Origin: Halorubrum sp. CBA1229
GTDB lineage: Archaea > Halobacteriota > Halobacteria > Halobacteriales > Haloferacaceae
DNA: 64,000 nucleotides
Assembly (NCBI RefSeq): GCF_003721435.2
Contig: NZ_CP054585.1
Coordinates: 1-64,000 of the forward strand
Direction of reading: 5' to 3'
Shown here: piece after piece, positions 44,059 to 46,287 of the stretch
Layout: each line of letters opens with the position of its first letter
How positions within the stretch are numbered: the first letter of the stretch is position 1
Translations under genes and position numbers: made by a program
Notes under the pieces: generated by a model
The model's input: the letters and a program-made list of their open reading frames with translations, nothing else
What the model was told of the DNA's origin: nothing
Databases searched by the model: none

Positions 44059-44131
44059 GCCGGAGTAGCTCAGCTGGCAGAGCGATTCCTTCGTAAGGAA
44101 TAGGTCGAGGGTTCAAATCCCTCCTCCGGCT
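44059..44131 (+). tRNA. tRNA-Thr (anticodon CGT)
   Basis: A complete 73-nt cloverleaf without encoded CCA. The acceptor stem is GCCGGAG/CTCCGGC and the D arm GCTCAGCTGGCAGAGC. The anticodon stem ATTCC/GGAAT has loop TTCGTAA (anticodon CGT, reading ACG), and the T arm is GAGGG-TTCAAAT-CCCTC. There is no intron. It borders an AT-rich island, consistent with tRNA genes being common integration sites. Confidence 0.95.
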
Positions 44132-44167
44132 CTTCTATCGAAACAAAGCGGAGTCGAACAGCCGAAG

Positions 44168-44208
44168 GAGAATTTGAATCACAGAGCGAAGCGGAACCAC
44201 CGCGGTTC
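44168..44208. repeat. Island-flanking imperfect repeat, copy 1
   Basis: A 41-bp segment starting GAGAATTTGAATCAC and containing AGCGAAGCGG. It matches 45948-45988 at 29 of 41 positions without gaps, in the same orientation. It lies 36 bp after the tRNA end. Confidence 0.5.
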
Positions 44209-44532
44209 GCATCTCCCTTGTCTGGCTTTCTCCATCTTATTCAAGATTGCATTATTGAATCCAGTATAACGGTTCCGATGGTCCTATCAGGAAGTTGGAA
44301 TCGGTGTTTCAGAGTGGTCAGCATGAACCGCTCTGACAAAATCCCTGAATACCCGTTTATGAGGCGCCAACAGGATCGTACTGGCGGCTGTGAAAGTTCG
44401 ATGGGCCGTACCCTTCTATCAGTAATTCTGTACTTAGAATCAGCGACCCGTCGATGATGGGGTATCAATACGTTAGTTATGAATGTGTCTAATTAAATAT
44501 TAGAAACTATGCTACTAATTATTAGTGCTTAC

Positions 44533-44540
44533 TTTTATTA
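44533..44540 (+). promoter_or_regulatory. TATA box of the island nuclease gene
   Basis: TTTTATTA is centred 27-28 nt before the ATG at 44564. This selects that start over an upstream in-frame GTG at 44525, which would overlap the TATA box. Confidence 0.6.
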
Positions 44541-44563
44541 TTCCCACGAACTATGATATTCAG

Positions 44564-45802
44564 ATGTCCCAAGGTGTTGACAGGCGCGGATACGTTTTTG
44601 TAGTGGATAAGTTCTCATACCCCGTTCACAGGTCCCGTGGATTTTGTGGAGTTAAAGAGCCAAAATTAGAGTGGAATTTTAGTGGACAATCCGGTTTGTA
44701 TGCTGACCTTCTCGGAACGCGACCGGGTGATTTGGTATTCTTGTACCAACGCAGAATCGATGAATCACCGGAGGATCGCGGATTTAGGGGAGTCTATGAA
44801 ATAACGAGCCGGCCCTTTGTTGATACACAAACTATCTCTTGGAACGGCCATACTGTCAGAGGTGAATGTCCTGAATGTGGTTCAACGTATCCCGAAGACT
44901 GGGGTAGGGACCCGAACAAAGACCCATGGACTTGCGATAATTGTGACAGTGACGTTCCGCAGGGTGAGCATATTGTTCCTAACCGGGTTCTGATCCAACC
45001 TGATAATTATTATCCAAATAGTGTGACTGATAATACGGCGTATGTTGATCAAACCGATCCTGGTTTTATTTGGACAAAGATATTCCGAAAGATGTATGGC
45101 GTGGGTACGGAACGAAGCGCGGCACCGTTACTTCCGGAAGAAACAGAGAAACTCCTTAGATTGCTGGAACGGGAAAACGAAGGGACTTCAGAAGTCCCTG
45201 ATTTTGAGCCATATCCCGCGCAGGAGAATAGAGATTACTTGAGTCCTAAATTGGGGGATGGTCCCGAAGTTCCATACGAACACTGGCTACACGCTTGGAT
45301 TTTGAATAATATTGACGAAGAGATACCAGTATTATCCGACATCGTCGGACCTCTCTCAGAACTGGAATGGTTCGGAAATGAGATCGTGTACGGGATAGGT
45401 CGCTCAAAAGTTGATCTACTTCTACTACATGAGAGAGATGGCCACAGGTACAAAGCAACGGTAGGTGAATTAAAACAAGAAGAAATCACGGTGGATAATA
45501 TCAATCAAATTGACAGATATTCGTATTGGATTTCACAGTTAGCAACAGCAAATGCCGAACCTCCCGTGGAGGATCTACAACTTCATCCAGTCATCATAGG
45601 ATCTGGAATAGAACCAGATGCGCGTACAAAGCTTGGATCGATGGAAGAACGTCAGTTGGAAATCCCATACTCACGTGCTGATTCAAGAACCACTTCGCGA
45701 ACAGACTGCACAGTTCAGATTCAAACGCCGACAGCTGTGGAGTATACTGTGTCGGACGGTAGTATCAGATTCGAGTACATTTCCGGACAATCGAGCCTGT
45801 AA
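44564..45802 (+). CDS. Putative defence nuclease: EVE/PUA-like N-terminus, zinc ribbon, PD-(D/E)XK
   Basis: A 412-residue protein in an AT-rich island beside tRNA-Thr. The N-terminal about 100 residues (GYVFVVDKFSYPVH, then GDLVFLYQ and GVYEI) look like an EVE/PUA-type modified-base reader. A zinc ribbon (C102, C105, C124, C127; CPEC/CDNC) interrupts that region. The C-terminal domain shows Asp284 (KVDLLLL) and Glu302-x-Lys304 (GELKQ), the D-ExK pattern of PD-(D/E)XK and NucS-like nucleases. I infer modification-dependent DNA restriction, but no homologue was checked. Base and codon use differ sharply from neighbours, indicating transfer. It has no partner gene. Confidence 0.72.
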   Translation: MSQGVDRRGYVFVVDKFSYPVHRSRGFCGVKEPKLEWNFSGQSGLYADLLGTRPGDLVFLYQRRIDESPEDRGFRGVYEITSRPFVDTQTISWNGHTVRGECPECGSTYPEDWGRDPNKDPWTCDNCDSDVPQGEHIVPNRVLIQPDNYYPNSVTDNTAYVDQTDPGFIWTKIFRKMYGVGTERSAAPLLPEETEKLLRLLERENEGTSEVPDFEPYPAQENRDYLSPKLGDGPEVPYEHWLHAWILNNIDEEIPVLSDIVGPLSELEWFGNEIVYGIGRSKVDLLLLHERDGHRYKATVGELKQEEITVDNINQIDRYSYWISQLATANAEPPVEDLQLHPVIIGSGIEPDARTKLGSMEERQLEIPYSRADSRTTSRTDCTVQIQTPTAVEYTVSDGSIRFEYISGQSSL

Positions 45803-46083
45803 AAACCACTCAGAGAACCATCTCAGTTGATCAAAAAAGATTGACGTTGTAATAGGTGTATATTATGCCAAGTATTCAATTTAGCGGGGATAGATAGATA
45901 CTCATTTAATAGACAAGGTTATTCCTCTCAATTAATCAAATTAAGACGAGAATTCAAATAAGGAAGCGAAGTGGCACGGCCACAGTTCCTTTGCTTCTGT
46001 CGTTCTCTCGTCGACCCACAGCAGAGAACTAGGCGACGGGTCAACAGAGCGGCGGCGCCTAGCGGACGACGCGAGGCCGAGCG
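45803..46083. other. AT-rich island, right non-coding part
   Basis: No gene seen. The strand is AT-rich up to about 45960, then returns to chromosomal GC. It holds the second copy of the 41-bp repeat. Confidence 0.6.
45948..45988. repeat. Island-flanking imperfect repeat, copy 2
   Basis: Begins GAGAATTCAAATAAG and contains AGCGAAGTGG; 29 of 41 positions match copy 1 at 44168. It marks the right edge of the AT-rich DNA. Confidence 0.5.
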
Positions 46084-46287
46084 TTAGGTCCGCCGTTCGG
46101 TGATCCGCGCCACCACGACGCCGGCGGCGACGAGGAGGACGCCGATGAGGGCGTTCAACGCGACGCCGATCGACTCGCCGGCGGCCGCGTTCACGACACC
46201 GAGGTACAGGAAGAACACGGCGACCGCGGCGTGGAGGACGAAGACGCCGGTCGGCGCGTTCGCTCCGAAGCTGAAGCCGATCTCCAT
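46084..46287 (-). CDS. Small two-helix membrane protein
   Basis: A 67-residue protein with two hydrophobic segments (about 13-33 and 38-60) and a basic C-terminus, 'ARITERRT'. It starts at ATG 46285-46287. Function unknown. Its high-GC composition matches the chromosome, so it lies outside the acquired island. Confidence 0.65.
   Translation of the reverse strand: MEIGFSFGANAPTGVFVLHAAVAVFFLYLGVVNAAAGESIGVALNALIGVLLVAAGVVVARITERRT

Follow-up and report, generated by a model that had tools for sequence, protein, structure and literature searches.

The window analyzed here, a stretch of 64,000 nt at the start of contig NZ_CP054585.1 of Halorubrum sp. CBA1229, carries an intact gene for a protein that is probably a single-gene, nucleotide-independent, modification-dependent (type IV-like) restriction enzyme. 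A small mobile segment would have brought the gene in as cargo at a tRNA-Thr hotspot, and the enzyme would guard this haloarchaeon against viruses whose DNA is modified. In the proposed mechanism, an N-terminal EVE domain would flip a modified base out of the DNA duplex and bind it, with a zinc ribbon in an EVE loop stiffening or extending this reader, and a NucS_C-like PD-(D/E)XK domain (D284, E302, K304) would cut nearby, probably as a dimer with Mg or Mn. We read these parts as a one-gene modification-dependent endonuclease because the EVE domain of VcaM4I flips a modified base, and because PD-(D/E)XK domains with a D…ExK motif are metal-dependent nucleases. The coordinates of all features are collected in Table 1.

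Table 1. Features of the insert, the EVE-nuclease gene and its predicted product, and methyltransferase loci elsewhere in the host genome (contig C1).
Feature	Position	Strand	Basis
tRNA-Thr(CGT), insertion neighbour	44059..44132	+	ARAGORN; same tRNA beside the empty site in five congeners
Imperfect 41-nt direct repeat, left copy, possible attachment-site scar	44168..44208	+	ungapped match
AT-rich insert, ~1.85 kb, approximate ends, absent from congeners	44217..46066	.	blastn against congeners
TATA-like box TTTTATTA	44533-44540	+	sequence; 24-31 nt 5' of ATG
EVE(+zinc ribbon)-PD-(D/E)XK gene	44564..45802	+	412 aa; ORF calls and profile-profile matches
Putative EVE domain, N-terminal part, residues 8-94	44585..44845	+	profile-profile match; alignment with archaeal EVE domains; weak Pfam EVE match (53-91)
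Putative zinc ribbon inserted in EVE, residues 95-135	44846..44968	+	C102, C105, C124, C127; alignments
Putative EVE domain, C-terminal part, residues 136-206	44969..45181	+	profile-profile match; alignment with archaeal EVE domains
Predicted NucS_C-like PD-(D/E)XK nuclease domain, about residues 238-365	45275..45658	+	profile-profile match to NucS_C-type proteins
D284 codon, predicted metal ligand	45413..45415	+	invariant in four-member alignment
E302-L303-K304 codons, predicted catalytic E-x-K	45467..45475	+	E302 and K304 invariant; aligned with the NucS_C ELKR motif
Q315 codon, the conserved Q after E-x-K in NucS_C-type domains	45506..45508	+	invariant; profile alignment
Imperfect 41-nt direct repeat, right copy	45948..45988	+	ungapped match
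Host PF00145 loci	C1: 2043390, 3166921, 3194083-3195522		Pfam match
Host PF01555 loci (two)	C1: 1662546, 1666716		Pfam match

A single-gene insert beside tRNA-Thr(CGT)

The earlier note had described a lone gene that starts shortly after a TATA box in an AT-rich island, and our comparisons bear this out. The GC fraction drops from about 0.69 to 0.43–0.48 across about 44.1–46.0 kb; the gene itself has 46% GC (69% for the window) and a GC3 of 0.405. In blastn comparisons, homology to congeners stops at 44196–44216 and resumes at 46067–46090. The gap between the tRNA and the next gene, which is the one at 46.1 kb, measures 21–166 bp in five congeners versus 1955 bp here. Because these congeners show the tRNA directly before the 46.1-kb gene, we delimit an insert of about 1.85 kb, of which the EVE-nuclease gene is the only clear gene, at a site that is empty in the congeners. 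A search of the host genome returned no second copy of this gene.

The TATA-like box is spaced from the ATG as would fit a leaderless haloarchaeal gene, a fit that on its own is weak evidence in such AT-rich DNA. An in-frame GTG at 44525 is disfavoured as the start, since it would put the TATA-like box inside the open reading frame, and the alignment of the putative EVE domain likewise favours the ATG at 44564.

The imperfect 41-nt direct repeat is at most suggestive of an attachment-site scar, with 22 of 1000 shuffles scoring as high in one scheme and 0 of 1000 in another. No clean repeat of the tRNA end turned up where it was sought, at the distal edge of the insert; the insert DNA gave no match to plasmid records, and the insert contains no integrase. 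In a sixth congener (G332), a tyrosine recombinase gene abuts the 3' end of the same tRNA, and beyond it lies low-GC DNA that includes an HsdR-like gene (both names are our reading of the translated sequences). The tRNA-Thr(CGT) is therefore a site of integration where, elsewhere in the genus, a restriction element has inserted, and we regard it as an integration hotspot for defence cargo.

Two further observations concern this site. The element at tRNA-Thr(CGT) in G332 (L120, 1–4900) also holds a gene for a SprT/YgjP-like metallopeptidase. Just 3' of the tRNA-Thr in L122, the tRNA-flanking sequence recurs in partial tandem copies, and a second tRNA-tail-like CTCCTCCGGCTTC is present at about 4950–4980 of L120; both look like scars of earlier integrations.

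Putative reader domain and zinc ribbon

Taken alone, the window protein matches the Pfam EVE family with 14.3 bits (cut-off 23) over residues 53–91, and a PDB search aligned the EVE-type protein PH1033 to these same residues, without significance. For profile–profile comparison, the query family comprised the window protein aligned with its Halobaculum and Thermus relatives; against a profile of 24 archaeal EVE domains from which the G405 relative was left out, hhalign returned a probability of 91.8 and a score of 50.3. The score was no higher than 19.3 with any of 100 column-shuffled EVE profiles, and 14.0 with the profile reversed. The window protein alone scored 41.9 against the EVE profile (controls ≤22.7), and the full-length relative from G405 lies above the Pfam EVE cut-off (28.8 vs 23 bits). 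These results support an N-terminal EVE (PUA-superfamily) reader of very diverged sequence.

The zinc ribbon has its cysteines at C102/C105 (CPEC) and C124/C127 (CDNC), and its matches to zinc ribbons in Pfam are weak. In the hhalign alignment the EVE profile runs on past both flanks of the ribbon, and the multiple alignment agrees; as judged from these alignments, the ribbon (about residues 95–135) is an insertion within the EVE domain and not a linker before the nuclease. A ribbon is found at the same site in the Thermus relative and is absent from the Halobaculum and G405 relatives. When the ribbon was deleted from the sequence so that the Pfam EVE match could run unbroken, the score rose only slightly, from 14.3 to 15.5 bits, still under the cut-off of 23.

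We also mapped the base-binding pocket of VcaM4I (P24, W82, Y130) onto the window protein and judged the mapping unreliable. Of the three pocket residues, only W82 may have a counterpart, namely W93, which directly precedes the ribbon.

Predicted nuclease domain

Pfam searches of the window protein gave no direct NucS_C match and no NucS N-terminal domain, the N-terminus being occupied by the putative EVE domain and its ribbon. When the three-sequence family was compared with 34 NucS_C-type domains, hhalign reported a probability of 95.4 and a score of 57.2 (60 shuffles ≤17.8), with the motif D…E-x-K…Q aligned between the two. In a full-length alignment of four members, namely the window, Halobaculum, Thermus and G405 proteins (26–31% identity to the window protein), only 22 columns are invariant, and D284, E302, K304 and Q315 are among them. 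Both results support a C-terminal NucS_C-like PD-(D/E)XK nuclease domain. Single-sequence AlphaFold2 modeling reached a pLDDT of 33.6 for the whole protein and 31.7 for the nuclease region, values too low for use; the nuclease model has a PD-(D/E)XK-like order of elements (helix-helix-strand-strand-strand-helix-strand), which we do not count as evidence.

The earlier note had proposed an EVE/PUA-like N-terminus, a CPEC/CDNC zinc ribbon and a PD-(D/E)XK nuclease around D284, E302 and K304, in the order reader, ribbon, nuclease. Each of the three parts recurs in these comparisons, and the nuclease residues, invariant in the four-member alignment, are more than a chance pattern; the proposed order does not stand, as the ribbon is placed inside the reader.

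Relatives and distribution

The family of full-length relatives is rare and patchy. Among 391 genomes of the class, the only true relative besides that of the host is a plasmid protein of Halobaculum limi (WP_277556200.1, genome G109), which BLASTP matches to the window protein with an E value of 3e-29. A second relative, of 521 aa, is encoded on plasmid pTthSNM7-6d of Thermus thermophilus (WP_244345634.1, E 7e-18; L006, 4923–6488), where it is annotated as a hypothetical protein, and a third, of 325 aa (E 3e-12), was reached from the Halobaculum protein in G405, which belongs to another Halobacteriota lineage. The pairwise BLASTP matches of the window protein with all three span most of its length, and the match with the Thermus protein takes in most of that protein as well. 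Scans of genome contigs and of viral contigs and a tblastn search of phages returned no homologues. Weak profile matches in other haloarchaea were mostly to the ribbon only or to the nuclease only and are not counted as relatives.

In PADLOC, the window protein matches the REase_II model PDLC03582 (E 4.6e-11), the best stretch covering positions 25–248 of the 521-position model. The Thermus protein scores 1263 bits against the same model and fits it from end to end, so the model must rest on that protein or a near-identical one.

Methyltransferase context and alternative explanations

The REase_II label raises the alternative of a conventional sequence-specific type II enzyme, in which the PUA-like domain would read an unmodified site and a protecting methyltransferase would be encoded elsewhere in the genome. 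The ribbon-bearing Thermus relative fits this scheme, as a gene for a DNA cytosine methyltransferase lies on the same 22-kb plasmid, some 2.5 kb downstream and separated from the gene of the relative by a transposase; integrase and VapC toxin genes are on this plasmid as well. The host, too, could supply a protecting enzyme from three PF00145 (C5-type) loci, with four matches of which two are pieces of one frame, or from two PF01555 (N4/N6-type) loci, all situated at contig positions 1.66–3.20 Mb and far from the EVE-nuclease gene. The three archaeal copies, however, are all lone genes that adjoin no DNA methyltransferase gene: no METHYLTRANSFERASE partner neighbours the window gene, and none lies within 8 kb of the H. 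limi copy or within about 7 kb of the G405 copy. Transfer of such a lone gene to a host that lacks the protecting enzyme would presumably be toxic, and the EVE domains of characterised nucleases read modified bases (PMC7897488). On balance we consider a type II enzyme rather unlikely.

The same host genes bear on what a modification-dependent enzyme could read. With C5-type and N4/N6-type methyltransferase genes present, the host's own DNA is probably methylated, and an active enzyme would have to leave those marks unread in their host contexts. Compared with the marks of the host, a likelier target is for this reason a modification on viral DNA (halovirus 7-deazaguanines, for example) or methylation in a foreign context. 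There is a slim chance that the protein belongs to a distinct type IV-like family, in which the ribbon in the EVE domain alters recognition, for instance towards the bulky haloviral dPreQ1 (a 7-deazaguanine). We know of no archaeal restriction enzyme that reads dPreQ1. In the halovirus HVTV-1, about 30% of G is present as dPreQ1 (PMC6884629).

It seems improbable that the protein serves not restriction but repair or an RNA-linked function, in which either the NucS_C-like part would act on DNA with mismatches, damage or branches, or modified RNA would be the ligand of the EVE domain. The family nearest to its nuclease domain, NucS_C, is best known from the mismatch and branched-DNA endonuclease NucS/EndoMS. 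Many stand-alone archaeal EVE proteins, which we also met among the archaeal EVE domains collected, are conserved outside defence (PMC7641849). Such a role would sit poorly with a distribution so patchy that only the host and one other of the 391 class genomes hold a true relative, with the location of the gene, which lies in foreign DNA inserted at a tRNA hotspot, and with the NucS N-terminal domain not being found by Pfam.

A nonfunctional cargo gene left over from a decayed mobile element, as the blurred ends of an insert devoid of integrase and the single genomic copy might suggest, is very unlikely given 412 open codons, the retention of the complete sets of four catalytic-type residues and four zinc cysteines, and a plausible TATA box and leaderless start.

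Comparison with known systems

The EVE-PD(D/E)XK architecture, which the earlier note did not recognise as described, is already known: Bell, Wolf and Koonin 2020 (PMC7641849) give it as a core architecture among predicted type IV restriction enzymes, and a full-length, ribbon-bearing relative is in PADLOC as REase_II. The window protein shares with the EVE-PD(D/E)XK class the EVE reader joined to a PD-(D/E)XK nuclease, the single gene and the patchy, defence-type distribution, and differs from it in the zinc ribbon inserted in the EVE domain and in its very diverged sequence; the term 'zinc ribbon' is absent from the main text of that paper, which we searched. The same survey (PMC7641849) lists DCD and YTH domains, too, as partners of PD(D/E)XK nucleases, in fusions found chiefly among archaea and hyperthermophilic bacteria. 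We therefore regard the protein not as a new kind of system but as a rare and diverged addition to a predicted class that is already known; what is unusual in the protein is the ribbon inside the reader.

Among the relatives, the Thermus protein has full-length homology and the same layout of EVE domain, ribbon and D...E-x-K motif, but is longer, shares only about 22% identity with the window protein, and comes from a plasmid with a cytosine methyltransferase gene and under a type II label. The Halobaculum limi protein resembles the window protein in its full-length homology, its lone gene and its nuclease motif, and differs in lacking the zinc ribbon. Of the characterised enzymes, VcaM4I (EVE-HNH) likewise joins an N-terminal EVE reader to a nuclease in an NTP-independent design; its EVE domain flips 5mC/5hmC, taking the modified base into a hydrophobic pocket, and the enzyme differs in its HNH instead of PD-(D/E)XK nuclease, in having no ribbon and in its demonstrated activity on 5mC/5hmC (PMC7897488). 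NucS/EndoMS (PF01939) has the same type of C-terminal nuclease domain, with D...ExK...Q, but has its own N-terminal DNA-binding domain, in the place of which the window protein has the putative EVE domain, and acts on mismatches or branched DNA. CMoRE (PMC12923530) was considered as kin and rejected, being an unrelated GIY-YIG enzyme.

If the modification-dependent reading is correct, the gene would provide a compact, single-gene haloarchaeal defence against viruses with modified DNA. To our knowledge, no enzyme has been shown to restrict haloviruses with heavily modified DNA. The ribbon, common to a haloarchaeon and Thermus and absent from closer archaeal relatives, would be a natural variation of a base-reading domain, so that the specificity of readers with and without it could be compared; this could yield a reagent for the detection of modified bases.

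Simpler relatives of the EVE-nuclease architecture exist in Halobacteriota, haloarchaea included. A lone 299-aa protein (L010, 214–1113; genome G574) has an EVE domain (27.7 bits) followed by a NucS_C domain (36.3 bits), both over the Pfam cut-offs, and a lone 306-aa protein (L022, 303–1223; genome G141) has an EVE-like start followed by a NucS_C domain.
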